Source: Vishniacozyma victoriae (Eukaryota; Basidiomycota; Tremellomycetes; Tremellales; Bulleribasidiaceae). Taken from it: a stretch of 64,000 bases of DNA. The notes under the pieces are model-generated. The model saw nothing but the letters and a program-made list of their open reading frames with translations. It did not search any database and was not told the DNA's origin. A program made the translations under genes and the position numbers. The stretch covers positions 310,001 to 374,000 of the forward strand of contig JADPYG010000002.1 in NCBI GenBank assembly GCA_017654735.1. Direction: 5' to 3'. Shown in pieces: positions 26,334-59,916 of this stretch (its first letter is position 1; every line of letters begins with the position of its first letter).

Positions 26334-27299
26334 TCAATCTTCTGCTTTCCTCTTCTTGCTCGACTCTTCGGATCCAGATGGCGGATCTAAGATCAGCTCG
26401 ACTACCGAAATGTCAGATGTGAAAGATAGACTCACAGGCTAAATCTAGTAGCTGTCGTATGACTTGCTCTTGCGAGAGCGCTGTCTTGCCCTTCAAAGCC
26501 TGGGCGCGTAAAATGATCCAGCCCACCGTTGGCGGTAAAGAGATGAAGAATTCATGGGGTATCATCCCGAGTGCGTTGTATTCTTCACAATCAATGTCGA
26601 TTAGTGGATGAGTTTGAGATAGTGTCGCCTTCGGAGTATTACAAAGGTGGTGTTTCGAAATTTCCCCCACTTCCTTCGGTTCTGCATCCTCTCGGCGCCA
26701 ACCTTTACATTCTTGAAGCGACATGGCATACGCCGTAGCAAGGCGGTTCTTCTCCAACTTCAAAGCTATGAGAAATTTGTCGAAGGGGTACAATGGATCA
26801 TCTTTTCTGTTGAGATTTTCGTCCAAATTTCGAGTCATGAAATCGATGATCAGGGAAATTTCCCACTTCCTAGCGAATTCTATGATGGATAGAACGATTC
26901 CGGAATCGTAGGAACCGGAATCGAACTCGAATTTAAGAGTGTATATGATATTCAGCGCTCTCACTATGACTCTCCTCGTCTCAAATCTGGTGTCGGTGAG
27001 GTGGAGAGGATCTCGCTGAGAGGCGGATTTGGCGAGAGCAATCATCGAGCGGAAGACCGGACTACCGTCAGCTCAAGTGTCAGATCACGAGAGGATGATG
27101 TGGGGATTATTACTCACGACGCGCTTTGTAATCGATATGAATGAACTTTGAACATCACGTTATCGCTTGAGATCAACTCGATGTCGGCATCATCGCTGTC
27201 GTACTTGTCGCATATCTTGAGAGTAGTTGCGCCATTCTGAGAAGTAGTCGTCCCGGTGATGGGTGAGCCTTGGTCGAGTTGAGTATTGAGGTTTGACAT
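26334..27299 (-). CDS. BTB1: BTB/POZ-like protein
   Basis: First of the BTB family. Three exons (27299-27118, 27061-26436, 26386-26334) give 286 residues in phase. The core is YDSDDADIELISSDNVMFKV followed by HSYRLQSAS; intron 1 (phase 2) falls in that last Ser codon, and exon 2 resumes PVFRSMIALA. A helical stretch IIEFARKWEISLIIDFM follows, then EFFISLPPTVGWIILRAQAL, this family's C-terminal motif. The last exon encodes YPPSGSEESSKKRKAED, ending in a nuclear-signal-like KKRK. BTB folds dimerise and often recruit Cullin-3 or act in transcription complexes; which applies is unknown. It is closest to neighbouring BTB2. Confidence 0.8.
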
Positions 27300-27507
27300 G
27301 ATTGTAAAAGGTATGTAAGTGACAATGAGATTTAGGAACAGGTTCAGCTTTTTATGGTAAGACGGTGGGTCCGTGCGAGCGTCCCAGTGTGTCGGTGCTC
27401 AGCTGGATCAGATGTCGTCATCCTCCTCTGCATCAGCCGCCGCTACCATGTACCCTCCTCAGACCCTCTATATCCTATCCTTCGGACTGTATCCGTACCT
27501 CAGTCCT

Positions 27508-28437
27508 TCATCCATTGGCTTTCCTCTTCTTTCCAATATCGGGAGGTGGGGGAGGAGGATCTGGCATGAGCATATCAACGGCCACATCCAGCAGGATGCT
27601 TACATGCATTGTCCATGAGCCTTTTGAAGTGATCTTTGGCTGGTGTCTTATCGTGAGCGGCCAGATGTTGTGATTTGAGTATTATCCAAACAATCGTTGG
27701 AGGGATTTGAAGAAAGTCCTGATGCCAGGACGCTCCAAGATCGAAGGGAACACCACCAAAGGATCTTTCGCCGCCGGGGAAGGATGGGAGATGTTCGCTC
27801 TGGTAACATAGAGGTAGCAGCCTCGGTGAATTCTCGTCGAGGCCGGCCGTGTCTGTATTGGGACCAGCGCCGGAAGTGTCTGTGACGTCTGCAGGCCACT
27901 TTTCTCCATGCGCCGCAAACGCAAGCGTGGCCAGACTATTGTCGTTGAGCCTCGAGGAGAGGAGCAACAATTCGAGTGCTGCACAGCCCTTGACTTTCAG
28001 TGTTGCTTGAATCGCCTTGCGGATGACGTTGGATATCAAGTCGATATCCCACTTTTTGGCAAAGTCGACGACAAACATGTAGGTTCTTGCGGAAGTCTCG
28101 TCGATGTCCTCCATCTCCAGGGTGTAGATGATATCAAGAGCCATCTTGACAATGCGACTACTCTCCACCCGTTCTTCGGTGAAGACTATCGGATCTCGCT
28201 GTGTCGCCGACTGAGCCATCGAGATCATAGATCTGAAGACTGAGCTATACAGTAAGCTCTCTTCTACTCTTTTGTACAGGTGTAGACTCACGAGAAGCAT
28301 TGAAGTCGGTAAGAGTGAACTCGGAATCGGTAGTTGTCGCTGGATATGAGGACGACGTCGGCATCATCACTATCGTATTCTTCGCACATCTTGAGTGGGG
28401 TAGTTTTGGCCGTACTTGTCGAGTCGGACGTGGTCAT
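27508..28437 (-). CDS. BTB2: BTB/POZ-like protein
   Basis: Three exons (28437-28292, 28244-27604, 27560-27508) give 279 residues. Start at MTTSDSTSTAKT was preferred over an in-frame ATG at 28596 because family members have short leaders. The BTB core is YDSDDADVVLISSDNYRFRV then HSYRLQCFS, intron, SVFRSMISMAQS. VVDFAKKWDIDLISNVI is the helical middle, and DFLQIPPTIVWIILKSQHL the C-terminal motif. The last exon encodes YPPPPPPDIGKKRKANG, again ending in a basic KKRK tail like BTB1. An ordinary tandem duplicate of BTB1 in the same orientation, about 200 bp upstream of it. Confidence 0.8.
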
Positions 28438-29002
28438 TTTTGGAGTATTGAGTACAGCTCCAGGCTTGGAAGCACTTGACCTGATTATTAGTATGTATGC
28501 AAGAGAGAGACTGATGAGGTCGTGAAGTGATTTTTGAGAGATATCAGGTACGACTGTGTGTATGAGACGTGTACTGTTTGTCAGCAGATGACGCAACGAC
28601 GCGACACACGATAATGGTGGAATATCAGTGGAGGAGACGGAGGTGTAGCAGCATGTCTGCTGCAGTATACATACAGAATAGCTGCATTTTGGCTCATTAT
28701 CCCGCTCTAGCTAAAGCTCGATCAGGAAAGACAAAAATTACCGAGTAGACCAGGAGCAGCTACGCAAGATAGCGCCTCTACCGAGGGAAACAAACGTCGA
28801 GGGTGATCGCGGAGCAGATGGTGTGGTGCGAGAGATTCAGGAGGATGTGATTGTATCAATCTATTAAAAACAGTATGAACATCAAAACAGTACATGAACA
28901 ACGAGTAGGCTACCGACAGACGACTCGACATTGACTTGCCTCATCACGCTCCGGTCACCGCTCCATATGCACCAGACATCACGAGGCTTTGAGCTGGAAT
29001 AT
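28438..29002. other. Intergenic stretch between BTB2 and BTB3
   Basis: These 565 bp carry the BTB2 promoter/leader and BTB3 3' end. The in-frame open stretch up to 28596 extends the BTB2 reading frame but lacks family similarity. No other gene is visible. Confidence 0.45.
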
Positions 29003-30042
29003 CTATCTGAAAGTTTCCTCCTCTCTATCATTGCCCGCCTCAGTATCAACTACTCATCAGCTGATATCCATCTAATGGACTTACACGCAAGAGTGAGCAA
29101 CCTCTCAAATTCCTCCGCCACCTCATTGTAATCGATCTGGGCTGTCTGCTCCGTCCCTACGTACGCCGCTCGGAGTAGCGCCCATACAGCAGTAGGTGGC
29201 AACTTCAAGAATGTTTCGTATCGCCAAGTACCAAGATCCCAAATGCTTCCACCATCAGCTGCTGAAATAGGCCTGAGCCCGGCAGCTGAATCGTCGTACA
29301 TCCGTCGAATACTGTCTTTCGAAAATGGTAAGACCCACTCGGACTCGACGAGGGAAGAGTCCCAGACTTTGGTGCTGAATTCTTTGATCCAAGTAGCTGC
29401 CATCCTGGGATTTTTCAATTTCAATGATATTTCGAATCGTTCCGTGATCGATCCTTTTCGGTGAAAGACGTCTTGGGCGATAGCACCGTGGACAAGTGCT
29501 CGGGCCTTGGTAAAGTCCCATTTATCCGCTAAGTCTAGAACCAGGTGAACACGTAATCCGTCCGAAAGAAAGTCCATGTTGAGATCATAAATAACGCCGA
29601 GTAGGGATTCAAGGACCCAGTTATGTTCGAGCATTGGGTCTGAGAGTTCGATCGGATCTCGCTTGGTGGGCGATGTGGTCGGGATCGAGCACATGGATCT
29701 GAACACGGTCCTGCAATATGAGCTATAGTACGGACGTGCGGGTTGACTTACGAAGCAGCCATCAGTTGGTACGAGTGGACCTTGAACGCGACATTATCGC
29801 TTGAAATCAGAGTGATGTCCGCATCTTCATCATTGTATTTGTCCGACAAAGCTGGCTCCTTTTTAGGCTCGTCGCTGACTTTCACTACTTCGGTCTCCTC
29901 GTTGATCGATTTGGCGTTTTCAACCGCCGGTAGCTACAGGTCAGCTGAAAGCGAGGATATGTCACCCTACCTGGTCGTCACAGGCTAGCCTGTCCTGAGC
30001 ATCATCCTCATCTCTCTTATTATCGGTAGGCGATAGCATCAT
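29003..30042 (-). CDS. BTB3: BTB/POZ-like protein, sister of BTB13
   Basis: Four exons, about 310 residues. Exon 1 (ATG at 30042) encodes MMLSPTDNKRDEDDAQDRL and ends at Asp-Gln with a phase-0 intron; this extra 5' intron is shared only with BTB13. The core is KYNDEDADITLISSDNVAFK then VHSYQLMAAS, the conserved phase-2 intron, and TVFRSMCSIPTT. The middle has LVLDLADKWDFTKAR, and the C-terminal motif is WDLGTWRYETFLKLPPTAVW followed by ALLRAAYVGT and EFERLLTLAC. The last exon encodes FDTEAGNDREEETFR, TAG at 29003-29005. ALLRAxYVGT and VAxEFERLLTLAC are nearly identical in BTB13, 29 kb away. Confidence 0.8.
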
Positions 30043-30299
30043 GTATGAGGAAGAATGGTGAAAGTGGAAAGACGAGTCGAGTATTTGGAAAGGTGATTCA
30101 CCCCAAGGCACCCTGATTTGGTCGACTATGTTCATTCAACGTCGAGCGATGTTTTCACGGTCAGCAAATCTCGTTTACTATGGGTCTGTGACAATAGAAT
30201 GTAAGTGTACATACATCTCGCCCTTATTGAAGACATGATACAAATACAAGGGTAAAGATACAACAAGACAAGACGCTCTGTCGACTTATGTTTTATATT

Positions 30300-33200
30300 T
30301 CATTTTTTACTTCTTCTCCCCACCTCTTCCACTTTTCTACCGCGGCCTCCCCCTACACCTCCAGATTCCACCTGACGGTCGGCCTCGTACTCCTTAGCCA
30401 GCCCTCGTTGTTTCTCAACCCACTTCCTCCTCTCTTCTTGTTGTTCATCCATCAACCCCAGAACCAAATCATCAGGTCCACCATCATCCTCGACAGCCTG
30501 TCGATACTCATCTTCCCACCTTACTCCCCATTCTTCATCCCCTTCTGGTTCTGTGGTCGGTATTCCAGAAGACATTGGTGAGCTCTCACTCTCTATCCCT
30601 TCTTCCCCTTCGGCATCATCGGCGAAAACAGCATCGTCCTCGAATGAAAGACCTGTTCCGATGTGTCTCTTTCGTCGACGATGGGCGTGCCGATCGTATT
30701 GGGATCTCAGGTGACCCATTCCTTCTTTTACTTGTTGGATGGGGATCGATTTCCAGGATCCGTACCCGTAATAACCTTGACTGCGGGGTTCGTTCGGTAG
30801 GTATGGGAGTTCAGAAGAAGGACTTGATTCAATAACGGAATGGATTGCCGTGATGAGTGGTTCATCTAGATCGGCACTGGACGGAGGGCGGAGTTCTACC
30901 TCTGGGCGGAATTGCAAACGGCGAGTTCGAGCTTCTGGGTCGAGGATAGAAAGGGGGGAGTAGTCGTCAATCGGTCTCGCATCGTAGAAATCGACTTGGT
31001 GAGATAGGTAGATTGATAATGGGAGGAGGTGGGGGTTTGAGGAGAACGATTGGATCTCGGCGTAAGCTAGATATAGGTTCCTATTTATCAGCTTGAACCT
31101 GAAAGCGAGAGTGATAGGCAGCTTACCTAAGGCTTGAATTTGCGGGTTCTTTTTCGGCTGCTGAAGGATGAAGTACAACCCCCTCCTGACTAGGTGGCAA
31201 CATCCAAGTGACTTTCACCCGACTCGTAATATCCAAATCACCCCCTCCAATCCCAACTTTCGCCTTCATCATCTCGGTCAATCCACTTCCCTTCCGTCCC
31301 ATACTCATCGACTGAGCAATGTTGGTGTGGATAGAAGAAACAGAAAGCCTAGCGAGGTCGAGCTGCTGGATTCTTGATCTGTAAATCGCGATATCGAGGA
31401 CTGAAGTACCGGTTCGCAGGGGATCAGAGAGCTGGGGGCGGAAAGTGAATGTGGTTCCTGTATACGTTGGACCTGCGAGATTGGCGTCCTGCTTCGAACG
31501 CATACGGAGTCGAGCCGAGGGGGTGATGGTGGTTGAAAGGGACTGAAGGGTGTGAGGATTAACAAGTCGAGCGGGAGTATGGGTAGACGCATTCGCAGCA
31601 CCTCCAGTGGGGTTGATGGCGAATACATCTAAATGTTAGATATCTCCCGCATCGCTGGAATGGTAGCTTACGAACAGTCCCACGTCCAGTGGCTACTCCA
31701 ATCCACCTCCCATCATTACTCCATTTCACCTTCACTACCTCAGAAACCGTATTGCCCCGCCTAAGCTCGTACAGATGCCATACTTCCCCTTGAACCTCCG
31801 CCTGATTCCCAGGCGAAGTACTTTGCGGGTGTATCTCGAATAAATGGAATGACCTCCCATCGGCGGGTGCAGCAAAGAGGGTAGTTCCATCAGGCGAGAA
31901 AGCGAGGTGCGATACGGCTGAATGGCCAGTTTCTGAGAACTTTCGATTGGCGGTCGTTACGTTTGGGACGGTATGTCGGGATGGTGGGAGTCTGAAATAC
32001 GCAATTGTTCTCGAATTGGTCAGATCGATAATCTTGATCCATTCTCCTCCTTGCTTCATGCTCGAATCCGACCCTGAGGCTCGTAGAGGCGAGGGAGAAG
32101 GGGAAGGCGGATCAACAGAAGTTGACTCATCCAGAACACTGGAATCATCCAGTGATCGACTCTCCAATTCTCCCTCCTCGTGAGGGAGGGTAGAATGGGT
32201 AGGAGCAGAAGTAGCCATCCGTTGATTAGTAGCCCTAGATGCAGCTTGAGCACCCATCTTAATGCCTGCCCATACGCCCCTTGCTACCCCACCTCCAATA
32301 CCCACTGCTGAGTTGATGACGTTCTTTGGTGGGGTCTGCTGACGGCTTAGAGGATGTCGTGAAGGCGTCGAGGCGGAAGTGATGAGGGTACCAAGACCGT
32401 CCTTGCCTGTGTGACGAGGTGGCTCGGAAGTTGTATGTGCGAATAAGCGGCCAGAGAGGGCGAAGGTCGGCATTGAGAGGCGTATAGTTGAAGGAAGATC
32501 GGTAATCGTTGGGTGGACAGGTTCGAGGGTGGTCGGATCGAAGAAGAGAAGGGAAGGGGTAGGATGCGACATCGCCTACTCGTCAGCTCGTACTACATTG
32601 TGAGCGACAGACTTACGACTACCACAGCTTTATCGGATACGCTGAGAGCAACCTCCTGCCCATTCCCTATATCGACCCTCTTGACTACTTCCCCTGTCCT
32701 CGAACGAAGCATAGCCAGACTATAGCTCGACATCCCCTTCCCCAGTCCAGCAATAAGCAACAGCACCATAGGGCCCTCTGAAGATAATGATCCGATAAAC
32801 CTGGCGCTCACTACCTTCTCGGCCCCGCCTTTGACCTTGGGTTTACGTATACTGGAGGAGTACCTGAGAGTAGGTATCGAAACAACTTCCTCAGGAGCTG
32901 CGAACCGTTCTTTGACGTGCTGATCTTCCGGTAATCGTGTTGGGGGTATTGCGAAGATCTGAAGAGCATGCTCGGGAGTCGAGATGAGCAGGAGAGGTCT
33001 ATCGTTAGCTTGATCCTTCAGACGTCTAGCTCACCTCTTCCCGCTCCCATCCCCTAAATCGCCTTCTTGCCAACTTGCATACCCCTCCTCCACTTTCGAT
33101 AGACCAGCTTGAGAAGGTAGGTAGTCTCTGATAGTATTATTGATCCCCATGTTCGCCATCAACCGACTTGGGCTCAAGTATGATCCAGAGCTCTCACTAC

Positions 33201-38894: not shown

Positions 38895-40041
38895 ATGAGC
38901 TCCGGGAAGAAGCTAGAAACTACTATGGAATTCGTCCAAAGGCTGACAAGGGAGGCGGCGGAGCGTCAAGTAGCCGAAGACCTGGAGAAGAATGGTGAGA
39001 TTGACAAGGAAGAGAAGGAAGAGGAGGGGAAGGAAGAGGAGGTGAAGGAACAGAAGGAAGTGGAAGGGAAGAAGAGAAAGAGGGAATCTGGGATTAAAGT
39101 ATCTGAGCGATACAACGAGGAAGACGCCGACATTACCATCATCTCAAGTGATGGCGTTCCATTCAAGGTACACTCACTCTTCTTGGTACGCGCCTCGTGA
39201 GTACCACTTTCGCGCAATGTGTACATTAGCTAATGAACAGGGCAGTATTCAAGTCGATGCTTGGCGTGGCTCAATCCATAGACCAGCGAGGTCCACTCGA
39301 CTTGACGGACGAATTCGTTGAACATAGCTTGGTCATTAAAGCGATTCTTGATATACTATATGATCAGGAAATTACCTCCTTCAAAGACGACAAGCTCTAC
39401 CACCATGTCATTGAATTCGCTAGAAAGTACGACATGTCTTCCATCCTTAAAACCATCTCGAACCAGCTTCGAGTACACGCTACTTCACCGGATAAAGCAC
39501 ACTGCCTCCGGTTACTAAGAATCGCCATCGACCTGGGTGAATGCGATTTGATGACCGCAATCGTCCGAGCGACATGTGGACACATTTGGCCAACTTACGA
39601 AAAACCCGACTCTTCTCCCTTTCAGTTTCAATTTGGCAGGGGGTCTGATTTCAAACCGATGCCACTCCCAAAGAAACGTGATGAACGGTCAATCTTCCCC
39701 ACCAAGAATCTCTCCCTACCATCACCCAATGTCTCAACCGCGTCGAAAGAGTACATCGAAGGCGGCAAAGCGTTCGATCTAGGAACTTGGCCATATCCCG
39801 AATTTGCCGCTCTCCCACCTCCTCTCGCTTGGGCACTACTTAGAGCCGAGCAGTTGGCTTCTAAAGAGTACCATCACCTTAGAACCGATGCCTTCGGTAG
39901 AGAGCTCCAAAACGTTCTGGATTCAATGTGTGAGTTCAGTCTTCTTTTTGGTTCTGCTTAGGTAGCTGACACTCTGCTGTAGATCCTATGAACGTCGAGA
40001 TGATCGGAAATGGGAATGTGGCATCTGGCAGGAGGAGGTAG
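38895..40041 (+). CDS. BTB4: BTB/POZ-like protein
   Basis: Three exons, about 350 residues. The start MSSGKKLETTMEFVQRLTRE leads into a long Glu/Lys-rich segment with a nuclear-signal-like GKKRKRESG. The core SERYNEEDADITIISSDGVP then FKVHSLFLVRAS is followed by the conserved phase-2 intron (39197-39240) and AVFKSMLGVAQS. Next are QRGPLDLTDEFVEHSLVIKA, a helical HHVIEFARKYDMSSIL, and the C-terminal motif FDLGTWPYPEFAALPPPLAW then ALLRAEQLASK. A phase-1 terminal intron joins to YPMNVEMIGNGNVASGRRR, TAG at 40039-40041. It opens the plus-strand tandem block BTB4-BTB9 and is closest to BTB5. Confidence 0.82.
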
Positions 40042-40352
40042 AATGAGGGAAGAAGTCGCGTATTGGGCAAGGGAGATTGTTGTTGTTTGTAAATAGATCG
40101 TATCGTAAAGAAGGAATAATAGCATCATTCATAGAGTTCATGAAACGCATTAGCATGGTCTGATATTTCGTCTTGAAGGCATAACCACCTGAGCCTTGAT
40201 CCCATCATCACGGTACATGCCGAGAGCATTAGTGACCAACATGAAACGTTCAACCAACTTAGCAGGTAAGGGACACACGTAAACATCCCTCCAACACACC
40301 AGACGCGTCACTGTATTGTCACATCCACTCTTTGTGAAACAATCACTCTCAA
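40042..40352 (+). other. BTB4-BTB5 intergenic region
   Basis: The BTB4 3' flank has GTTGTTGTTTGTAA near 40077-40091, shared with other BTB genes. ACGCGTCACTGT at about 40304 also occurs before BTB4 (about 38836). No gene is seen. Confidence 0.45.
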
Positions 40353-41573
40353 ATGAGAGGAGAATCAAGCAAGTCTCGCATGAACCGGCTGGGTAGAGAA
40401 GCGGAGGAGGATATACAGGAACGAGAGGACCAAATGAGTAGGGAACATCCTGAAGGGAAGATGTCTGAGTTTACGATCAACAAGGAAGTCAACTGGAAAG
40501 TTGGAGATCAACAAGGAAACAACGATGAGGAAAGAGGCAAAGGAAAGAAGAGGAGACTGAACTCCGACACTCACCTTTCGGAACGGTACAACGAAGACGA
40601 TGCCGACATTGTCATCATTTCCAGCGATGGCGTTGCGTTCAAGGTTCATTCACTCTTGTTGACTCGAGCTTCGTAAGTCACCTGCTCCACCGCACATGAC
40701 ATGCTAATCAGCAGGTCAGTATTCAAAAACATGCTCGGTATCGCTCAATCCAACTCGCAAAGAGACCCAATCGATCTTACCGATTCGTTCGTCGAACTGA
40801 GTGTAGTCATCTGGACAGTACTCGATATACTATACGATCAAGAAGTCATTTCCTTCCATGACGATAAGCTATATCACCACGTCATCGAATTCGCTAGGAA
40901 ATACGATATGGGAATCTTACTCAAGACCATGTCAAAGGAGATTAGGGTTCATGCCACGTCACCCGATAAAGGTCATGATGTCCTTGGATTGTTCCGAATT
41001 GCGATCGATTTGGGTGATTACGAGTTGATGGCTGCTATCGTACGAGCAAAGGGGAGTCATGCTTGGCCGTTGCTGGCGAAGAAAGATCAAGAATCAGAAC
41101 TGAATGCGTTATTCCCTTCATCGAACCTCACTTTACCTAAACCGCTCATCACCGGCTCGACCAAAGAATATGTTCCAGGTGCTAAAGCGTTCGATCTTGG
41201 AGGACGGCCTTATTCGACTTTTGCTGCTTTACCTACTCCACTCGCTTGGGCGATACTTCGAGCTCACCACACCGACCAAAAACCATTCCTGTCGGACGGT
41301 ATAGAGTCTATAGGGAAAGAACTCGAGAAGGTATTGGAATCAATGTGTGAGTCTCGACTCTCTCCGTTAGTTATTGCTGACATGGTAGATCCCCGACCCT
41401 TCAACAACAACAATCACAATGCGGAAGAAGAAGCAGGAGTCGCCCTACCAGTTCGAGGTTTCTTATTTGGCCGTCCTGCCGGAACCTTATCGTTCTCTCC
41501 CGGTAACTCTACCGCACTCCCTCCATTTCCATTTTCTTCCTCTGGCAATAATGCTGGTGCATTGTCCGGATAG
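40353..41573 (+). CDS. BTB5: BTB/POZ-like protein with extended C-terminal tail
   Basis: Three exons, about 380 residues. MRGESSKSRMNRLGREAEED begins a charged leader with GKKRRLNSD, a possible nuclear signal. The core SERYNEDDADIVIISSDGVA then FKVHSLLLTRAS, phase-2 intron, SVFKNMLGIAQS follows. The motif HHVIEFARKYDMGILLKTMS is nearly that of BTB4. The C-terminal motif is FDLGGRPYSTFAALPTPLAW then AILRAHHTDQK. After the terminal intron (about 41347-41388) the last exon is longer than in relatives: YPRPFNNNNHNAEEEAGVAL, then a Gly/Ser/Pro/Phe-rich tail, TAG at 41571-41573. That 42-bp intron is a multiple of three without a stop, so its retention would keep the frame. Confidence 0.82.
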
Positions 41574-41871
41574 GAGAATTGTAATTTAAGAATGGACATT
41601 ACTGTTGTTGTTTGTAAGCCCATGTTTCGTACATTGGTAGCATCATTGATAAGGTATGTATCATAGTAGCATATCCTGTTAGTCCATACTTCGGCGTCCG
41701 GATTTGGCTCATGGACGGAGCTGATAGGTCACGGCGGTATAGGTATCGAGGTGTAGTGGTGGCGACTCCGAGCTAAGACGTCATCTATCAATCTATCAGG
41801 CACAAGGTTCTTCAAACCCCACCTTCCTTTAAAATTCAGTATCGTCACATCATCACATTAACACATACAAT

Positions 41872-42857
41872 ATGAGGGATGAAGGTGGATTCGAAACCAT
41901 GAAGACCTTGCTAGAACAATTGCCGGAGACAGTAAATAACGGGAATGGAGGAGAGATCAAAGGAAAGGAAGGGAAAGAACTCAAGATGTCGGAGAGATAT
42001 AATGAGGATGATGCAGATGTGACGATCATCTCTAGTGATGGGGTTGTCTTCAAGGTCCACTCCTTTCTTCTTCTTAGGGCTTCGTACGTCCATCCTTAAC
42101 CCTCATCACTTTGTGAGCTAACATTAGGCCGGTGTTTAAGAACATGATCGGACTAGCCAAGTCCGACTCCCAACGGGATCCCATCACATTGACCGATAAA
42201 CCTCTTGAACTCTCCCTAGTGGTCAAAGCCACTCTCGACATCCTCTACGATCGGGAAGTAGCTTCCTTCAAAGACGCCAATCTATATCATCAAGTCATCG
42301 AGTTCGCCCGAAAATGGGATATGCCAGTTATCCTTAAAACCATTTCAACCCAAATCCTCGTCCATACCAATTCAGAAGGTCTAAACAGCCACATCAACCA
42401 GTTTTTCAGCTTAGCTGTCGATTTAGCCGAACCTAAACTCCTTACCGCGATCATGAGGTCGAAAGTCGGAAGAGTATGGGGAGATCCTATTCCAAACCCG
42501 GAAGAGGGGATCAGTCGATTATTCCAAGAAAAAAGCCTTTCCATAGGTCCGCCTATCCTCAACGAGGATGCTGAACGATGTCTAAAGGGCGCTCCCTGTT
42601 TCGAATTGGGTGGATGGCCTTATTCAAAATTCGCCGCGGTACCTACTCTGATCGTATGGGCCCTGTTGCGAGCTTCCGAGACGGCGGATCTAGCGTACAA
42701 GAATCATGTACCTGAGTTCTTGTTGGTGGAGTTTCAGAAGTTGATGGAATCAATGTGTGAGTCGATATTCATTACCTGATACTGTACCTCCTGCTGATGA
42801 CTCCTGATAGATCCGAAAGATGTCAGCAAAGCAAATGGAACAGGACCCTCGTCTTGA
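41872..42857 (+). CDS. BTB6: BTB/POZ-like protein
   Basis: Three exons, about 295 residues. The short leader MRDEGGFETMKTLLEQLPET precedes MSERYNEDDADVTIISSDGV then VFKVHSFLLLRAS. The phase-2 intron (about 42084-42127) leads to PVFKNMIGLAKS and QRDPITLTDKPLELSLVVKA. The helical middle is YHQVIEFARKWDMPVILKTI, and the C-terminal motif FELGGWPYSKFAAVPTLIVW then ALLRASETA. A phase-1 terminal intron joins YPKDVSKANGTGPSS with TGA at 42855-42857. TCAGGCACA lies 76 bp before the ATG. The decayed fragment at 48950-49030 resembles exon 2 of this gene most. Confidence 0.82.
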
Positions 42858-43193
42858 TAGGATGGATAGCTTTTGTAGCTTGAGGACGGGAGGGTATGTG
42901 GTAAATCTCGGTGACGAAGTATGAAGGATATGTTGTAGTTTGTAATCGCATGGTATCGTCTAGATGAGTAGCATGATGAATAGGAAGCATGTGAATCAGG
43001 CGCATCTCCCTGTGAACCAGCTTGGGATGATATAGATATTCCAACATGATCTTCTACATGCGAGTCGCATCATCAGTCAGTGGAGGGATAGTAGAAAATA
43101 TCAGACTTCATACACAACTCACTCACCAGGCACACCACATCGTCCGGTAATCTCACCGTTGATCATAGCACAATCAATTCAACATATTATACC
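42858..43193 (+). other. BTB6-BTB7 intergenic region
   Basis: Holds the GTTGTAGTTTGTAATCGCAT 3' motif (42932 onward) and CCAGGCACA at 43126-43134, 60-70 bp before BTB7. No gene is seen. Confidence 0.45.
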
Positions 43194-44162
43194 ATGGTGG
43201 ATTCAGTCGGCTTGGATACGATGGATGAAATCGTGGATGTACTTGAGGATATAAAGTCAGGAAGGGATATAGAGTCTGGAAAGGATATCAAGCTTTCAGA
43301 GGGGTATAAGGAAGAAGACGCGGATATCATGATTATCTCGAGTGATGGCGTTGGATTCAAGGTTCATTCGTTCCTGCTATTACGGGCTTCGTAAGTGATG
43401 ATAAGATACTCGATGAGCTAATTATCAGATCAGTCTTCAAGAATATGATCAGTATCGCCCAGTCCGAAATACAGCGAGATCCTATCACTCTCACCGATGA
43501 GCATGTAGAGTGTAGTCTTGTAGTTAAAGCGACCCTCGATATCCTTTACAATCACGAAGTCGTCTTGTTCGACAACGACACCCAATATTGCTACGTTGTC
43601 GAATTTGCCCGCAAATGGGATATGTCCACTGTCCTCAAGACCATTTCGATGCAACTGCGTCTACACTCCATCTCGACGGAGAAGGGGAATCATCCACTGC
43701 GATTACTTCGGATTGCCATCGCCTTGGGAGAGAACGAAACCATATCAACCATAATCAGATCGGCATGCGGAAAGGCTTGGCCTATGAGCGGAGGCGGCGA
43801 GAAACAAAAAGGGAACTTACCCTACAAACCTCCCACTTTACCAGAACCGACCCTCTCGGAGGGGACGAAAGGTTTTCTCAAAGGCGCCCCTGTCTTTGAC
43901 CTAGGCGGATGGCCTTATGCGAACTTTGCCGAGCTACCTTCCCCGCTTGTTTGGGCATTGCTTCGAGCAGGCACCACTTTGGACCAGTCCTACGTAGCCC
44001 GAACTAGTGCTAGCTTGGCGACGGAGGTCCAGAAGTTGATGGATATCATGTGTGAGTCACTAATCAGATCCTCACCAATCACGCCGAACCAATTACTGAT
44101 TGCCAATCGTAGATCCGAACGAAACCGCAAAATCGGAGAACGGGGGAGGAACATCTGCTTGA
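43194..44162 (+). CDS. BTB7: BTB/POZ-like protein
   Basis: Three exons, about 290 residues. MVDSVGLDTMDEIVDVLEDI precedes a Lys/Asp/Glu linker and the core GYKEEDADIMIISSDGVGFK then VHSFLLLRAS. The phase-2 intron (43392-43430) leads to SVFKNMISIAQS and RDPITLTDEHVECSLVVKAT. The middle is CYVVEFARKWDMSTVLKTIS. The C-terminal motif is FDLGGWPYANFAELPSPLVW then ALLRAGTTLD. A phase-1 terminal intron (about 44052-44112) joins YPNETAKSENGGGTSA, TGA at 44160-44162. Read-through of that intron stays open to 44182, which would give a different basic tail. The acidic residues of the BTB core match BTB6 and BTB8 closely. Confidence 0.82.
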
Positions 44163-44460
44163 GTACTGCCTGGGTCGGATAGAAGGACAATGAGACGACG
44201 GGATGGCGGCGGAGGATTAGAGGCTGTTATTGTACAACGATAGTATCGTAAGAACAGTGATATTATGGATCGTGGTACATGTATGAACCGCATCGCCCCG
44301 ATTCCTAGTCAGATCATATGAGTCTATGGAATGGACGCGGTGGAATTAGGGAGAATGGGTGACGATGTTGAAACAACTTACCTTTCCATCAGGCACATCG
44401 GCCAACGACTTCCCGCCAACATACCAGTCTTCTTTACTTACTGTTTCACTTTCATAACCA

Positions 44461-45506
44461 ATGTCCGCAGATCGTATGGAAACGACAAGAGCTCGCATTG
44501 CTGAGTTAACGAAAAGAATCAAGGATGACCTGGGACAGGTATCTGATGAGGAAGAGGAAGCGAGTATGGATGATATCAAGATGGAGGATAGTCTGGAAAC
44601 ACAAGAACAGGTCGAGTCGGGGTCAAAGACATCGGAACGATACAACGAGGATAGTGCCGATATGACCCTGGTTTCCAGTGATGGAGTCACGTTCAAGGTC
44701 CATTCGTTCGCCCTCCTGAGAAATTCGTAAGTTCTCCATCCATCCTCGAACGTAAAAGTGAGCTAAACGTCAGATCAGTATTCGACTCGATGATATCGTG
44801 TGCCCAATCGAGTTCCCAGCGCGATATCATCCATTTGACCGATCAATTCGTCGAGCATAGTCAAGTCATCAAAGTCACTTTGGATATCCTGTACCACCGA
44901 GGAATCACCTCGTTCCGAAACGAAAGACTTTATCAACACGTAATTGAATTCGCTCGAAAGTGGGAGATCCCAGTCGTCCTCGAGACCATCACGAAAGAAC
45001 TCCGCCTTCAAGCCAACTATCCCAAAGCATTCAAGTTGATCATTCGAATGTTTCGGCTCTCAATCAATCTGGGTGAACACGACGTTATCATCGCAGTCAT
45101 CAAGGCTTGGGGTGGGAAATCCTGGGGGACGAACACTTCTCCCTCCAATTCCACCAATAAACCCGACCACTCGTTCTTTCCCGCGACTACACCTACACTT
45201 CCGGAACCCACTATCGAAGGCGCCCTTCTAAAGTACATTGAAGGAGCCCCTATTTTCGAATTAGGAGGTTGGCCTTTCGCTACATTTTCCGAATTGCCCT
45301 TACCTCTCATATGGGCTATCCTTCGAGCCGGACAACTTGCTAAAGGGCGTCACACGGATGCGATGGCGACAGAGCTCAAGAAGGTGCTTGATTTGATGTG
45401 TAGGTGGGAGTATCCTCATATTGTCGGAAACCTATGGCTGACTCCTCTCACAGATCCCCCAACTACCTTCTCGTCCGCGGGAGGCTCATCGGCACCACCT
45501 GCCTAG
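44461..45506 (+). CDS. BTB8: BTB/POZ-like protein
   Basis: Three exons, about 325 residues. The leader MSADRMETTRARIAELTKRI could form a short amphipathic helix and is followed by an acidic stretch. The core is SERYNEDSADMTLVSSDGVT then FKVHSFALLRNS. The phase-2 intron (44729-44775) leads to SVFDSMISCAQS and RDIIHLTDQFVEHSQVIKVT. QHVIEFARKWEIPVVLETIT is the middle, and FELGGWPFATFSELPLPLIW then AILRAGQLAKG the C-terminal motif. The terminal intron (about 45401-45453), also stop-free and in frame, joins YPPTTFSSAGGSSAPPA with TAG at 45504-45506. TCAGGCACA lies 72 bp before the ATG. Confidence 0.82.
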
Positions 45507-46039
45507 GGCGTTCCTTGACATTGAGATTCTTTCTCGGCTTTCGTAGTGAGGATGAAAGGGCTGTTCATGTTTTGTAATCGCATAGTATTGTGTTGAGAAG
45601 TAGCATTATTGAGAAGAGGTATGATTCCTAGTAGCATGACCTTGACTCGATTATCTCGCTTGTTCAGTCAGATGAGACTTTACGAACGACCCATGTGATA
45701 CCATGTTGAGACTACCGGTCCATGACCCTGACGTAACAACTGAAGAGCTTGGCGTCAATTAACTGGTCTTCCGTCACTCTTTGTCACTCTTGATATCTAC
45801 TTGGATGTACTACATGCACAGCTGGAATACCAAAGAATCCATACGGCACATTCAGACATGGTCTAAATAGGACGGACGAGATTGGAGGGTCCGTGCGGGG
45901 GTGACGCGACGTGGTTTGATGGATTGATGACTGGTACTCATTCGCTTCTTATCAATCACACTCGATATCGATACCGAAAGAGTACCTGACGAATCAATCC
46001 TACAGACCACAGGTGAAGCATATATTGCAGGAGTGAATC
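45507..46039 (+). other. BTB8-BTB9 intergenic region
   Basis: 533 bp with the shared 3' motif (TTTTGTAATCGCATAGTATT near 45570) and the BTB9 promoter. A GAGCTTGGCGTCAATT at about 45748 resembles GGCTTGGCGTTCATT near 48749 downstream of BTB9, hinting at duplicated flanks. No gene is seen. Confidence 0.4.
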
Positions 46040-48579
46040 ATGGTAAAGGAGATGGAGACCAACTTGGGAAGGGAAGATGATCACATCGATGACTATGAAG
46101 CGCTTCATCAAGCAGAATTTGGACACCGAGACCACGGCTTCTGCAACTACCGCAACTATCGTGACTTCCACGACTTGTTAGAAACCCAATGCGACTACTA
46201 CTATCCCAGCATTCCGCATCGCCCAGCCGGGCAGAAGAGAGCATATCAGGATTCGAATTCAGGATCCGATGACGCCAGATCCAAGCGTTTGAAAGTGCAG
46301 GACAACAGAGACTCAGAGGGGATGGCAGAGTATCTACTCGTAGTTGAGAGTGGAGAGGGAGTCTGGCAATGTGTCTTATCAGAAGATCAAACAGGAAGAG
46401 TACTACCAAGAGGCTATCCGAATGTACGAGGAAGAGAAAGATATTGAGAGGGATATTCTAAGTTTTGTTCTCTCGAATACACATGCAGAAGAAGATCAGG
46501 ATATTGTCATGATGGAGCGTGGACAAAATGAAGAAGAGGAGGAGGAGGAGGAGTGGGATCAGGAGGTACCGCCGGAGGAGGAGGAGGATCAAGAAGCAAT
46601 ACGATATCAGGAACAGTACGACATATCCAAATACCTTGTCACAAACACCTATACGGTAGCAAACTCGGATATCAACATTGTTTCAAGTGATGGTATTGTC
46701 TTCAAGGCGCATACTGTAATACTGAGGCAAGCATCGTGAGTCACTTCAGGCCCTATGGGCCTTTAAGCGTGGTGATCTTGCTAATTTCAACAGCCTTTTA
46801 CATCAATCTTCCCTTCCTCCTTCCTTGTCGTACCTGGGGTATGAGGCAATCAAGTTGCCCGATGACGACACTGGACACAGCTCTGTCCTCGCGATCTATC
46901 TTCAGTTGATCTATCCGGCAACGCGCCCCGATATGAACTTAAACAACGGACTCTTAAATAGACGAGTCATACGATTAGCCCGAGATTGGAAATCCCTACT
47001 CGCCCTCGACCGAATCAGTAAAGAAGTTTTCCTCGGCGCCCTATCCGGATTCTCTCAAGCAAATTCACCCACTCTCTTCATCACCGCTGTCGGACTCCAA
47101 GATCCTACTCTGCTGGGATTCATAGTCTCGCAGACTGGCCAGCTTCCATGGGTCTACGCCTGGAGCAATAGGGACCGCAAATGCTTCACCGAACACGGCA
47201 CCGTGAGGTATCACCGCAGCGAGGTCGCTCATCAACACCATTACAACTTTGGATCTTGGCTACTGGAGCATTACAATTCAATACCACCTCATGTGGTTTA
47301 CGCGACTTCCGAGCTAATCGGGACAACCGATGAGGAAGTCGATTACCGCTTCGTTGGGCGAGAGCTAAAGACAACACTGCTCCAGGCTCGTGAGTCCATG
47401 CAACATATTTGCATCAGAGCTAACGCGATCTAGACGGATCTGGCAACTCCTGGACCGATATCATTTTGCATGATGGAATTGACATGCCTCTTTGTAGCAC
47501 GACGATGGACCGCATTCGACACATTCAACAATATGACCGTCTAGGTGCCGGTGCTGAAGATTTTCTCTTCGAAGAGAGATGGTGGAGCCAAGATATTCAG
47601 TCACTACCTACCGAAATCCAAGCTTCGGTCTTCACCCACGACTCCACCAATTCTGACGTGATGATGGTATATAGCGACGGGCCACTTGTAAGAACCCATT
47701 CGCACATTCTCGCCGAAGCATCGTGAGTTGATAACATGAAGGAGATGCTGGAAAGCTGACGCGATTCAGTCCTGCCTTCTCGGGGATGGTTGGCCTTCAC
47801 GCCCAGATCGATCCGCCCACTGTCGCAGAGGGGCCGCTCAGCCTAGGCGACGAGATGTCGGCACATAGTACCGTTGTTAAAGCATTGATGGATGTCCTCT
47901 ACAGGTCAGAGCTCCCCGATCTTCGCTTTCCGAATCTGCTTCGCCACTTGATCGTCCTCGCCGACAAATGGGGAATCGAAAAAGTACCTGAGATCATCAA
48001 GAAAGCTCTATCAGTCCCCGAGTCTTCTGCCCGCCACTTCGACCGCTTCCTGCTCGCCATCGGGCTTGAAGACTATGCTCTGGCCGCGAAGATCATGGGG
48101 CAGGTGGATATGGACAGACAGTGCTACGAGATATCGCTGGACGAGCTCCCTCCTGTAGAGCTCCACGACGGACCAATCCTAGATTCGGCACTAGAATATC
48201 GAAATTACGGGTACATACACTCCAGCGGAATGTACGGTTTAGCATCATGTCAATACCTCGACTTCATTCGACTTCCCCCTCGAGTCGCCTGGGCTTTGCA
48301 GAGAGCCGCCGTAATGTGGGAACATGGAATTGACGATGGACGCATGCGCGGTAATAAGATATTGGATTGGGATCAAAGAGAGGTCACAGGGGAAAGGTTT
48401 AGGAGGATCATGATGCCTGATTGTAAGTGTGCCAAGCGTTAATGGGTCATGGGCTGATTGTAGATGAGACCTCGGAGCCGCTCTTCTCGGTGAACGGGCA
48501 CTGGTCAAACCGCTGGGACGACGGTGGGGATCTGCCCTCAACGCACGAGAGGGACCGAGTGACTGGGTCGACAATGTAA
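46040..48579 (+). CDS. BTB9: fused double-BTB protein
   Basis: About 770 residues in six exons. Exon 1 (ATG at 46040) gives a His/Tyr/Asp-rich leader with AGQKRAYQDSNSGSDDARSK. A 43-bp intron (about 46341-46383) switches to the frame with a Glu-rich run and BTB unit 1: VANSDINIVSSDGIVFKAH then TVILRQAS, phase-2 intron, SLLHQSSL. Unit 1 has the motif YNFGSWLLEHYNSIPPHVVY. Its terminal intron (47390-47433, phase 1) does not lead to a short tail but to an exon of 97 codons containing BTB unit 2: TNSDVMMVYSDGPLVRTHSH then ILAEAS, phase-2 intron, PAFSGMVGL. Unit 2 ends with YLDFIRLPPRVAWALQRAAV, then the last exon to TAA at 48577-48579. No in-frame stop or ATG-poor break separates the units, so this is one gene made from two family members. 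Confidence 0.7.
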
Positions 48580-48949
48580 ATGGGTCAGACGAGGATACGG
48601 AACATAGTCGGACAACGAGTATGATGTTGTGCTTCATTCTGCTGGAAGCAGTCGCATGTATGAAGGTCGACCGGCTGGATTGGACTCACTCAGGCTGAGA
48701 CTACCTGGACAGACCATCGTGACGATGTGATTCCGGTAATTCGGAAGGCTTGGCGTTCATTCGCCAAACAACCTGATGTCTGATCATCTACATTGTGCAT
48801 CATCTTTTACATAAGCCTCATACCGCTGTAGGCTGCAGGCTTCAAGCTTACCTTATCGAGACCATGTACCAATACCATGCGTCTCAACATTCGACTTGTC
48901 CGGGACGACGTGATACCGATTGCCGGAGTTGAGGTTGGTTGAATGATAA

Positions 48950-49030
48950 GATCCCGTCACTTTGACCGACAGACCTTTTGAACTCTCCCTAATAGTCAGG
49001 GATACTCTCGTCATCCTCCAGACCATGTCT
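48950..49030 (+). pseudogene. Decayed BTB family fragment
   Basis: DNA from about 48950 aligns by eye with BTB6 exon 2 (42178-42248), with about 58 of 71 positions matching. Translation gives DPVTLTDRPFELSLIVRDTL against DPITLTDKPLELSLVVKATL in BTB6. The BTB core exon before it and the middle and C-terminal parts after it are absent, so it is a fragment, 166 bp upstream of the dehydrogenase. Confidence 0.75.
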
Positions 49031-49156
49031 CCAGTAGCAAATCAGCATCGACCCATTCCCTAGACCCCACATGACGGAGCGGACCAAAGGTGCGGAATGA
49101 CTCGGCACACCGGCCATACCCACGATCCCGGTCGATCAGGAGTCGTACGCTCTTCA

Positions 49157-49164
49157 TATAAATA
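49157..49164 (+). promoter_or_regulatory. TATA box of the dehydrogenase gene
   Basis: TATAAATA ends 31 bp before the ATG at 49196; short, but a good consensus match. Confidence 0.5.
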
Positions 49165-49195
49165 GCTGGCTTCGGAGTGGACGCTACCCCTAACA

Positions 49196-55060: not shown

Positions 55061-55972
55061 TCATCCCGGGTATTGCCTCGCCCACCACGACGGATTGCCT
55101 TGTACCCAGTCCTTCACAACCTTGTCGTTGTCCCAGTCTGAACTGATATGTCAGCCTCCGTTTGAATAGGCTCGGCGGCTTACCTCGCCATGACTCGAGC
55201 GAGGTCCGGTCTCATGGCGGCGTAAGAAATCCCTCCATGGTCAGACGCCCCTGCATGCTTCGTTCCGACCTGACAAACCGCCCAGAGAAACCTTATACTT
55301 ATCTTCGATAAATCTCGAATGATCTCCGGCGTCCAACCTCGCCAATCGAGCATTTGTCGCATGAACTCGTCTTCCTCGATGTAGATGTCCCCTTGCCAAG
55401 CGTCCAAAGTCGCTATAAGTCTACCGCACAGTTCCCAATCCTCCAAAATAGCAGCGACAAAGACATGCCTCCCTCCGGTAGGTGGGGTTTCATTCAGCAG
55501 TCCATTGAGGTGAATCTTGATGGCGTCAATGGTTGACTCCATCTCGTACTTCTTGACGAAATAGGCAACTTTGTCGTCCAGGTAGTCTCGGATGGTTTGT
55601 GGTAATTTCGGATCGTTGTCTTCCTGTTGACTTATGATTCGAAAGATCTTATCGAGGTTGGCTCCTAGTTCGATCTCGGGGTCGGTAAAGCGGAGTTCCG
55701 CTTGTGGGTGCATCTCATAGAGTGCTGGAATCCTGGTCTTGAGTACGGGACTAGACACGTCAATTATTGTCCTCTCGTTGGATTTTGCTGAGGTACTGCA
55801 ATAATGACACCACTTACGAGAGTCGCGCCAGAGTATGTGTTAACCAGAAATCCCAATTATCGCTACTGAAGACTCTCAAGTTAGCTGTATAGTCGTGGTC
55901 GTCTACTCCCCACCCCGGCCATTCACGAAATCTCCCATTCTCCTCATCTGGTCCAATTGTCGAATCCTCCAT
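55061..55972 (-). CDS. BTB10: divergent BTB-like protein (LDWRGWTP subfamily)
   Basis: Three exons, about 270 residues. The start MEDSTIGPDEENGRFREWPG is at 55972; the reading frame upstream has only GTG. The BTB core is reduced to DYTANLRVFSSDNWDFWLTH then TLARLS, without the FKVH histidine. The phase-2 intron falls at the same Ser, and PVLKTRIPALYE replaces the usual VFxxM. The subfamily motif is MLDWRGWTPEIIRDLSKISI then RFLWAVCQVGTKHAG and ISYAAMRPDLARVMAR. An apparent stop there lies inside an intron: donor GTAAGC after GCGAG and an acceptor at 55143 add a last exon ending DWVQGNPSWWARQYPG, TGA at 55061-55063. The matching tails of BTB11 and BTB12 support this splice. Confidence 0.72.
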
Positions 55973-56492
55973 ACTGATAGTCGGCGAGAGATGATACACG
56001 ATGAAGCGAAGGAGAGATAGTGAAGGCAGTCTAGAGAAGTGAGATACACCAATCAGAACCTACCAGGATACACACACACCCTTTGACTCGGTCCCGTATC
56101 GGACTTAAGATGAGAGAAGGGCTTGGGTTCGGGGCCGAGGAGTCAGCCAGGAGCGCAGCTGTGCTGGAAGATATCCAAGCGCAACGAGGTGAATGATTGA
56201 TATCAGCAGTGTAGCAATACCCCTCTAGCGGCCATGGTTATGGCAGATGATCCCTCACATGATCAGATGGACACCCAGCTCAAAGTCCAGATTCCGATAT
56301 CAATACCTGCCCAACAACCTCAATACATAACATCGCGAGACTACTCGACATCTCATCAGACCTACCCCTGCGCAGTCCAGCTCCTAGCCTCACCTACGGC
56401 GATTGATAGCCTTAGTCACGTCAGCCAGCTTTCTACGTCAAACGGGACTGGACCTACACCATCATGAGCTTGACCATAACGTGACATGACCT
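55973..56492. promoter_or_regulatory. BTB10 promoter and BTB11 3' flank
   Basis: 520 bp. ACACACACACC at 56070-56080 lies about 98 bp upstream of BTB10 (TG repeat on the coding strand), as before BTB11 and BTB12. A plus-strand open frame (56234-56467, 77 codons) has no recognisable feature. Confidence 0.45.
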
Positions 56493-57387
56493 TCAAGCCC
56501 ATAAAGCTTTATCACCTTGAGTCCAATCCTCGTATTTGATTTTGCCGTGCTCCACCCTGCATCCATCAGCAGTCATCAGACATATATGTCTCGATCGCTT
56601 ACTTCTTCATGATCAGAGCCAAGTCCTGACCCATGGCCTTATAGTCGATCGGTCCATTACCTTGCGCATGTTTGGTTCCACTTTGACATACCGCCCAGAG
56701 GAATTCCTCGCTGATTCCCGATAATGTTCGCATTTTCTCTGGCGTCCAGCTCCGCCAGTCTAGTAGCTCCCTCATGACTGCAGCATCTTCGATGTAGCAG
56801 TAATCGTCGATGTCTCGTACCACGGCTTCATTCAAAAGCGTAACTAATCGTCCGCATAGAGCCCACTCCTTCAGTCGGGCAGCGACGAGTATATACCCCG
56901 TTCCCTGAGACGGGAAGCCAGTTGCGAGACGGAAGATTTCGATCTTGATGGCGTCCAGGACAGATTTCACCTCGTATTTTTGCGCAAGGCAGAGAGAAGT
57001 GCCACCAGGACTGTAATGGAGTGCCTCGAAAAAGATTTCAGGCTCCTCAAGGACTTCGATGAGGCGAAGTAAGACTGAAAGATTGCCGGCGCACTCGATG
57101 ATCGGGTCGGACAAGTGTAAAGTGGCGTTGCTCGACGATTTGTCGCAAGTGGCAAGCATCGAGGCGAATACCGGGCTGAAGAGGTGAGCTGAGAAGACCA
57201 AAGTGACATTACATGTATGTAGTCGAACGTACGAGTTTTGAGCCAGATTCTTCGACTCCACCCAAAACGAATATCCATCGCTGCTCACAAGTTTCAGATC
57301 GGAATCCTTGTTTCGTCTATTAACCCAACCTATCCATACCTTCTCTTCTCCTTCATCCTCTTCTCTTACAGGTGGCATAGCATCCAT
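56493..57387 (-). CDS. BTB11: divergent BTB-like protein (LDWRGWTP subfamily)
   Basis: Three exons, about 265 residues. The start MDAMPPVREEDEGEEKVWIG is at 57387. The core is KDSDLKLVSSDGYSFWVESK then NLAQNS, again lacking the BTB histidine. The phase-2 intron (57 bp or so, stop-free in frame) leads to PVFASMLATCDKSSS. The middle CLAQKYEVKSVLDAIKIEIF resembles BTB10 and BTB12. The subfamily motif is LLDWRSWTPEKMRTLSGISE then EFLWAVCQSGTKHAQ and IDYKAMGQDLALIMKK. A terminal phase-2 intron joins VEHGKIKYEDWTQGDKALWA with TGA at 56493-56495. DW(V/T)QG..xxW is shared with BTB10. It is in tandem with BTB10 and BTB12. Confidence 0.74.
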
Positions 57388-57759
57388 ACTGATATCTTTG
57401 ATGAAGTTTTGGATATGACGAAAGACAGTAGAGATTGCGGAAGGAGAGGGTATTCAGTCAACAAACAACTTTTACACACACACAGCCCCTGACCCCGTCA
57501 AACATCGAACTACTTGGAGAAAAGGGGGTCGGGCTACCCTACAGATCCTCAAGGCGGTGGAGCTGATATCTCGATAGTATAGCTTCTGTCAATACCGGAC
57601 TTCTACAATTCTGAACTGGTATCGTCAGCACGACTAACCCGAGGCAGAGGCAATCTCAAGGTCGTTCACGAATAGGACATGTAGACACGATTTAGAGTAG
57701 GACCGTCATACATGCTTCACCTCCTAAGAGCGACTTATCCTATCATTGCCACGAGTACC
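57388..57759. promoter_or_regulatory. BTB11 promoter and BTB12 3' flank
   Basis: 372 bp with ACACACACACA at 57474-57484, about 90 bp upstream of BTB11. No gene is seen. Confidence 0.45.
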
Positions 57760-58632
57760 TCAAGTGCCCCACCATGACGAAAGCCCTTCTGTCCATCTAT
57801 CATTTATTTCCTCCTCGTAGTTGATGTCGCTGCCATTAGTACAGTCTGCTCAAGCGTAGACTCACGATGTCATGAGTTTTGCCAACTCTTCTCCCATACC
57901 CTCGTAGTAGATGCCTTTGTCCTTGTTACGGCCAGCATGGTGTGTGCCAGCATAACACACTGCCCAGGAGAATTTTGCACTGACTCGCCCCATCTCATCC
58001 ATTGTATTCGACGTCCATCCTCGCCAGTCCAGCATCCTCCTCGTATACTTCTCTTTGTCTGACTCATCTGGCCTGACATTGTCAAGAGTCGCAATGAGTC
58101 GCCCGCATAAGGACCACTCTCCTAGATGAGCGGCTTCGAGAAAATACTGTCCACCTGTTGGCGGCCATTGGGCAATAAGGCCGAACAGGTACATCTTGAT
58201 CTCGGCGATTATTAAGTTCATCTCGTACTTCTTTGCGAAAATTATCGTGTGCGGGTCCAGTCTGTCGTACATCAGATCCGCAAGATCATCGGAGTCGCTG
58301 TTATCGATGGCGAGTATGAACATCAGGATCGTCTCGACCTCGAAGCCATCCTCGATATCGTGGCTGATCAGGTGGACGGTATTGGAGGTGTTCCCGCATG
58401 TGGATATCATCGAGGCGAAGACCGATCTATCAATGAGATTCAGCAATATTTCACCTATTGCGTGTTAGAAAACTCACGAGTGATGACTCAAGATGGTCGA
58501 TGAGAACCAGTATGACGTTCCATCGCTGCTCACGATTTTCAAGTCGGCATTCTTGACATCGTTTTGTTCCCATCCGGGGTAGGGTGTCAACTCCTCATCC
58601 GGGACGTCTTCAGAAATTGTTGATCCAGTCAT
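57760..58632 (-). CDS. BTB12: divergent BTB-like protein (LDWRGWTP subfamily)
   Basis: Three exons, about 260 residues. Start MTGSTISEDVPDEELTPYPG at 58632 was preferred over an in-frame ATG at 58743 that would translate the CA/GT microsatellite. The core KNADLKIVSSDGTSYWFSST then ILSHHS lacks the FKVH histidine. The phase-2 intron leads to SVFASMISTCGNTSN. The middle is IIFAKKYEMNLIIAEIKMYL. The subfamily motif reads MLDWRGWTSNTMDEMGRVSA then KFSWAVCYAGTHHAG and IYYEGMGEELAKLMTS. A terminal phase-2 intron with an ACTAAT branch site joins DINYEEEINDRWTEGLSSWW-GT, TGA at 57760-57762. It is divergent from BTB13 across 220 bp. Confidence 0.74.
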
Positions 58633-58700
58633 CGGAAACAGGTGAGTAAGATGAACGAGAATGCGTAGAGGAGGACGAGAAATTTTGATGGTACACATTA

Positions 58701-58716
58701 ACACACACACACACAC
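58701..58716. repeat. (AC)8 microsatellite upstream of BTB12
   Basis: Eight AC units, 70-85 bp upstream of the BTB12 ATG, inside the 220-bp bidirectional promoter shared with BTB13. Shorter AC runs stand in matching positions before BTB10 and BTB11. Confidence 0.9.
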
Positions 58717-58852
58717 CCTCTTTCCCTTCCCTTCATTGGGCAATCAACGTCAACATTAGTGACCTTGTTCGAGTACACACGCGTTGTTTACCTCTTATCA
58801 CTCATCCTTCTTCACCTTATCTCTCTTACTTAGCACCTTCCGTTCCGACACC

Positions 58853-59916
58853 ATGAGTGAAATCATCAACATCGAACAAGGTACTCAGCAAGGTGGCGAT
58901 CAAGTACGTCGCGTTTTCCTTTCAGTCTGCTTGAAGATTGGCTGACGCGTCTAGCAACCCATTTCGAAGAAAGCTAAGAGGGATCTGGAGACGATGGAAG
59001 GGACAGGGGAAAAAGAGAAGGAAGAGGAAAAGGATAAAGTTGATAAAGCAAGGAAAACTCCTACCGTCTCTAAAAAGTATAACAGCGATAATGCCGATAT
59101 CAGCCTCATTTCAAGCGACAACGTCCTCTTCAAGGTCCACTCGTATCGCTTGATGATCGCATCGTACGTCTCACCTTGAGGGGAGGTTAAGTTGGACAGC
59201 TGACGAAGGCAGATCGATTTTCCGAGATATGCTCTTGATGCCTGACTCCGCAGCTCGTCAAGATCCTATCCACTTGACTGATGAGAAGATAGAACAAAGC
59301 AGGGTGCTTGAGATCCTCTTGAACATCATGTATACGCTGGAAGCGACGGGAATCAATACCGTGGACATGTTCTTAGTCCTTGATTTGGCGGAGAAGTGGG
59401 ATTTCGAGCATGTCCGACATACTGTCCGCCGAGACCTTGCACACCACGACAGCAACGAACACGAGTTCCACCGCTTTCAGCGGTCCTGCAAGCTCAAGGA
59501 CCCCAGCTTGATCGCAAGCTTCCCGAGAATTATACATAACGCCAACTGGACTGACTCTCCGACTGGCTCTGCGATCGACACTTTCCGCAGAAGACACTTG
59601 GTTCGACAAGTGTACGATGAGGCGGCTCCAGCTTTACTTAACGAGTCTTTTGTAGGAGGAGGTCGTATCTTCGATGCCGCAACCTGGTCCTACGGTACTT
59701 TCCTGCTCACTCCCCCTACTGTCCTCTGGGCGCTGCTCCGAGCCACCTACGTCGGAACGACCACCCCGGCGGAAATCGATTCCGACAAAGTAGCGGATGA
59801 ATTCGAGAGGCTTCTTACCCTTGCTTGTAAGTCATCCGGTCATTGGACTTAGCTGATCAATAGACGAGCCCAAGAAGGCGGAAGCCGACGAGAATAAGGA
59901 TGATGGTAGTAGTTAG
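58853..59916 (+). CDS. BTB13: BTB/POZ-like protein, sister of BTB3
   Basis: Four exons, about 295 residues. Exon 1 encodes MSEIINIEQGTQQGGDQ and ends in a phase-0 intron after Asp-Gln, exactly as in BTB3. The second exon adds a Lys/Glu-rich linker and the core KKYNSDNADISLISSDNVLF then KVHSYRLMIAS. The phase-2 intron leads to SIFRDMLLMPDSAARQDPIH. The middle is MFLVLDLAEKWDFEHVRHTV, and the C-terminal motif FDAATWSYGTFLLTPPTVLW then ALLRATYVGT and VADEFERLLTLAC. A phase-1 terminal intron joins YEPKKAEADENKDDGSS, TAG at 59914-59916. It converges on DRE2. Confidence 0.8.

Follow-up and report, generated by a model that had tools for sequence, protein, structure and literature searches.

A 64,000-nucleotide stretch of Vishniacozyma victoriae DNA (the window; positions 310,001 to 374,000 of contig JADPYG010000002.1, here C2) contains a real, clustered and old expansion of genes for BTB-BACK-like proteins, whose function we infer. 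Hand-spliced gene models gave 13 genes with 14 BTB-like units in three blocks between window positions 26334 and 59916. The first-pass annotation had given the same counts and the same three blocks, and its outer ends matched our models exactly. It had also described the genes as filling most of 26-60 kb, which was too generous: the summed gene spans are only 13,833 of 33,583 bases (41%). The models were spliced by eye, with homology kept in mind when choosing splice sites.

Block 1 (26.3-30.0 kb; 26334-30042) comprises three genes (g1-g3) on the minus strand. Block 2 (38.9-48.6 kb; 38895-48579) comprises six genes with seven units (g4-g9, g9 having two) on the plus strand. Block 3 (55.2-59.9 kb; 55180-59916) comprises g11-g14, three on the minus strand and one on the plus strand. 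The label g10 is not used for a gene, as that number was originally assigned to a relic exon. Scores below are for Pfam BTB (cut-off 20.5 bits).

26334..27299, minus: g1, BTB-BACK-like, 286 aa; exons 27118-27299, 26436-27061, 26334-26386; 28.6 bits
27508..28437, minus: g2, 279 aa; exons 28292-28437, 27604-28244, 27508-27560; 27.3 bits
29050..30042, minus: g3, 304 aa in a model whose terminal exon is uncertain; 29.9 bits
38895..40041, plus: g4, 349 aa; 42.5 bits
40353..41573, plus: g5, 378 aa; 35.4 bits
41872..42857, plus: g6, 295 aa; 41.2 bits
43194..44162, plus: g7, 289 aa; 38.4 bits
44461..45506, plus: g8, 314 aa; 39 bits
46422..48579, plus: g9, double gene, two BTB plus C-terminal units over 5 exons; second unit 27.3 bits
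48950..49018, plus: relic, 69-nt remnant of exon 2, 83% identical to g6; repeat family D3
55180..55972, minus: g11, 241 aa as modelled, probable extra 3' exon left out; most divergent BTB, no match
56599..57387, minus: g12, 243 aa as modelled; 19.0 bits, under the cut-off
57862..58632, minus: g13, 239 aa as modelled; 19.3 bits, under the cut-off
58853..59916, plus: g14, 308 aa, four exons; 39.5 bits

The units share an intron position. A phase-2 intron interrupts the Ser codon preceding the VF..M helix in 14 of 14 units, as had been proposed from the sequence. A second, phase-1 intron lies near the unit end in 10 of the 14 (not in g3 and g11-g13 as modelled). The 5' start of g9 is uncertain, and its first unit (g9a) is degenerate and has no Pfam match; a hidden Markov model (HMM) of the family aligned both units, though both helped build that HMM. 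The relic region gave a family-HMM match at C2:358950-359060 (window 48950-49060; independent E-value, i-E, 0.0048).

The BTB family is a clustered expansion in its own genome. Searches of the genome (11.58 Mb, 17 contigs; E<=1) with g4, g3 and g12 gave 28, 29 and 7 rows, counts that cover best-scoring candidates only in a possibly incomplete assembly. Because 61 of these 64 rows were on C2, the family appears to be confined to one ~94-kb region of this 519-kb contig; the remaining three rows, from the g3 search, were weak matches on contig C11 (E 0.002-0.025). Scanning C2:280001-424000 with the family HMM revealed five extra loci outside the window, at 303.3-304.2, 305.1-305.9, 306.2-306.7 (partial), 389.4-390.2 and 396.7-397.7 kb of C2. 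These five, members or fragments of the family, flank the window within C2:303278-306747, 389373-390225 and 396724-397730.

Several other genes are interspersed in the family region. Those over Pfam cut-offs were SPT5, a CAF1B/HIR1-type WD40 protein, a BCAS3-like WD40 protein, a short-chain dehydrogenase, CIAPIN1 and an aldo/keto reductase; a TrkH-type transporter scored below its cut-off. In g1 and g2 the final exon (26334-26386 and 27508-27560) ends in KKRK-rich sequence (KKRKAED and KKRKANG), possible nuclear localisation signals. About 45-90 nt downstream of their modelled stops, g4, g6, g7 and g8 have part of a stretch in common, GTAATCGCATRGTATYGT, which lies close to a GTAGCATNATTGA-like segment (40089, 42942, 44232 and 45574, plus strand). 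Its 18-mer match has 1 substitution each in g6 and g8 and 5 in g4 and g7, the latter a level also reached by chance (e.g., at 21972 and 53552); downstream of g5 the 18-mer was not matched within 6 substitutions. The stretch may be a shared 3' untranslated element or a remnant of duplication.

Domain identity of the proteins

BTB homology of the proteins is supported by profile comparisons. The Pfam BTB model (PF00651) scored over its cut-off in 10 of the 14 units (27.3-42.5 bits), and the homology proposed by the first-pass annotation held up in this check; g12 and g13 fell just under, and g11 and g9a gave no match. A phmmer comparison showed homology of g11 to g12 and g13 (~1e-47), and g9a aligns with the family. 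The family HMM reached i-E values down to 9.5e-81 on the window genes, a circular result since those genes built it. Independent support comes from Pfam BTB and from family-HMM matches outside the window (i-E to 1.9e-27), and none of five dinucleotide-shuffled versions of the 144-kb region yielded a family-HMM domain at i-E<0.01 (best 0.75). In the PDB, the sequences that the profile matched best were those of SPOP and KBTBD4, each of them weakly (E 0.02-0.03). No Pfam family besides BTB scored over its cut-off in any of the 13 genes scanned.

The signatures by which the family had been described proved exact in few genes. DAD(I/V)xxISSDGVxFKVHSxLLxRAS, first ascribed to all thirteen, fits g5, g6 and g7 exactly, differs by one residue in g4, and is exact nowhere else: g1-g3 and g14 read SSDN in this signature, and g8, g9 and g11-g13 diverge further. 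The SSDGVxFxVH portion presumably resembles that of BTB proteins in mushroom-forming basidiomycetes. Only g7 carries the C-terminal block DLG.WPY..FA.LP..LVW exactly. Genes g4-g6 and g8 have close variants of it, g1-g3, g9 and g14 have weaker ones, and g11-g13 read LDWRxWT...WAV.

The C-terminal part is predicted, from structure models, to take a BACK-like fold. This block had been matched to no named domain. In Pfam, BACK (PF07707) gave no match at E<=1 in 13 of 13 genes, within the limit that HMMER filters discard most matches above ~0.1, and was also absent among the 14 families listed for 51 members of A5. The predicted model, in contrast, was closest to the BACK half of SPOP and KBTBD proteins. 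The sequence alignment with KBTBD4, a weak match, runs past the BTB into the following helices (the first BACK hairpin). The exon-2 structure model was good but lacked the N-terminal half of the BTB; the full-length g5 model still contains an intron of 14 residues, and its predicted local distance difference test score (pLDDT) was <50 for residues 107-121 and 123-132.

Age and constraint of the duplications

Comparisons among g4-g8 showed that the duplications are old, with constraint on the BTB and the C-terminal block. Mean identity was 65% in the BTB and 61% in the C-terminal block, 36% in the helical pair and 26% in the linker. Most comparisons had reached or come close to saturation in synonymous differences (proportion pS 0.50-0.95; 0.70-0.88 in the BTB), versus a proportion of non-synonymous differences (pN) of 0.16-0.28 in the BTB. 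Because pS is near saturation while BTB pN is low, these substitution patterns indicate that g4-g8 are old and constrained.

Metagenome relatives sort by paralogue. We compared 40 metagenome proteins, retrieved with three queries only (g4, g12 and g14); g4 had 18 relatives, the best 94% identical across 64% of the query, and g14 had 20. In a quick tree, supported by the SH-like approximate likelihood ratio test alone, with 19 of its 55 inner branches starred and x4 left out, 31 of the 40 proteins were in starred sets with exactly one window gene (10 with g4, 3 with g5, 1 with g6, 2 with g12, 3 with g3 and 12 with g14). Based on this sorting, the duplication predates the split from the metagenome relatives, and the g4 and g14 groups have since spread further. 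To that extent, and for those three queries, the earlier description of the family as lineage-expanded gains support. The longest contig for metagenome proteins P0002 (g4-like) and P0012 (g5-like) is 6,622 bases for both, perhaps one contig with the two as neighbours, as here.

Possible functions and the Cullin-3 question

We favour, at about even confidence, a tandem-amplified family of BTB-BACK-like adaptors that form BTB dimers, bind a common partner (our best guess being Cul3) and choose clients through linker and tails. Each protein has a variable, often acidic N-terminal tail, then the BTB, two paired helices where a 3-box would stand, and a linker, which most members have in a long and variable form but g11-g13 in a short one. 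A conserved hairpin, predicted to be like the late part of BACK, follows (W/F..LP..WALLRA or a variant of it). The BTB would form dimers, possibly across paralogues, and the BTB-BACK body would bind one common partner, perhaps the organism's own Cul3 ubiquitin-ligase scaffold. The fast-evolving linker and tails would give each paralogue a separate client, in the manner of single-chain cullin-3 RING ligase (CRL3) substrate receptors.

A Cul3-adaptor role is neither shown nor excluded: Cul3 is present in the genome, but the full contact motif is missing. The cullin at C11:1655719-1658087 has one 303-aa stretch that best matches Cullin-3, and PMC2785787 lists a complex of Cul3 and BTB for S. pombe. 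Two cullin loci lie ~47 kb apart on C11 (1611296-1613662 and 1655719-1658087), the second of them Cul3-like. In KLHL3 and SPOP, the phi-x-E motif of the alpha3/beta4 loop touches Cul3 (PMC3616122). The complete motif was found in none of the 13 window units that could be scored (g9a could not), while both controls, SPOP and KBTBD4, have it. Partial forms were the hydrophobic phi alone in g11 and the acidic last residue alone in g6 and g7. In g1, g2 and g4-g8 the motif's place is taken by a family stretch of the A(Q/K)SxxQR type. Therefore, Cul3 binding would be possible only with a changed interface.

The same absence would fit oligomerising BTB-BACK-like scaffolds that are independent of Cul3, a tentative but serious alternative. 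Such proteins would serve in transcription or structural complexes as dimers or as heterodimers of paralogues, with the phi-x-E surface given over to another conserved partner. The family's own stretch in that loop (g1, g2, g4-g8) and the Lys/Arg-rich tails of g1 (KKRKAED) and g2 (KKRKANG) are consistent with this. However, the helical pair and BACK-like tail look like those of Cul3 adaptors, and a DNA-binding domain over cut-off was found in 0 of 13 genes scanned.

It is improbable that the genes are largely drifting tandem duplicates of little function, retained by chance at an amplification-prone locus. The degenerate BTBs of unit g9a and gene g11, the relic exon (48950-49018) and the partial copy x3 outside the window would be expected of such drift, but the reading frame stays open across the BTB and C-terminal region in each of the 13 hand-spliced models, and the intron phases match, BTB pN among g4-g8 is far below pS (0.16-0.28 vs 0.70-0.88), and metagenome relatives group individually with g3, g4, g5, g6, g12 and g14.

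We give little credence to a bolder form of the adaptor reading: a single-locus repertoire of ~18 BTB-BACK-like loci engaging Cul3 or another shared scaffold via an AQSxxQRDPI-like contact stretch that stands in for phi-x-E, in which a hypervariable linker within the BACK-like domain, instead of MATH or kelch, would select clients, possibly foreign proteins. The MATH-BTB expansion of C. elegans has been read as immune. A repertoire for non-self or pathogen recognition, made of CRL3-like receptors with linkers under diversifying selection, is the least probable explanation: it has the linker identity among g4-g8 (26% vs 65% in the BTB) and a precedent for BTB lineage expansion in those C. elegans genes (PMC1257465) in its favour, but loose constraint would equally yield a fast linker, and synonymous sites are at or near saturation.

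Comparison with known BTB systems

Lineage-specific BTB expansions are known in worms, plants and vertebrates (PMC1257465). In mushroom-forming basidiomycetes, BTB/POZ is among the ubiquitination genes of developmental orthogroups specific to complex multicellularity, as opposed to those also present in C. neoformans (PMC8893723). Unlike SPOP and other MATH-BTB proteins, the window family has no MATH match (E<=1, 13 of 13 genes) and no full phi-x-E, and places its variable linker inside the BACK-like part. The BTB-BACK order is common to the window family and the BTB-BACK-Kelch proteins KBTBD4, KBTBD2 and KLHL11, all three of which were among the comparison matches to its predicted model; the window family differs from them in having no kelch match (E<=1, 13 of 13 genes) and, again, no full phi-x-E.

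We conclude that the family is of an already known kind, unusual chiefly in that it is tightly clustered, lacks the full phi-x-E and has a fast linker, and that our results stay within known biology. It adds a compact, single-locus fungal BTB expansion without the usual client-binding domains or the Cul3 contact motif, and its linker, changing far faster than the flanking domains, makes it tractable for asking how a BTB repertoire gains clients.
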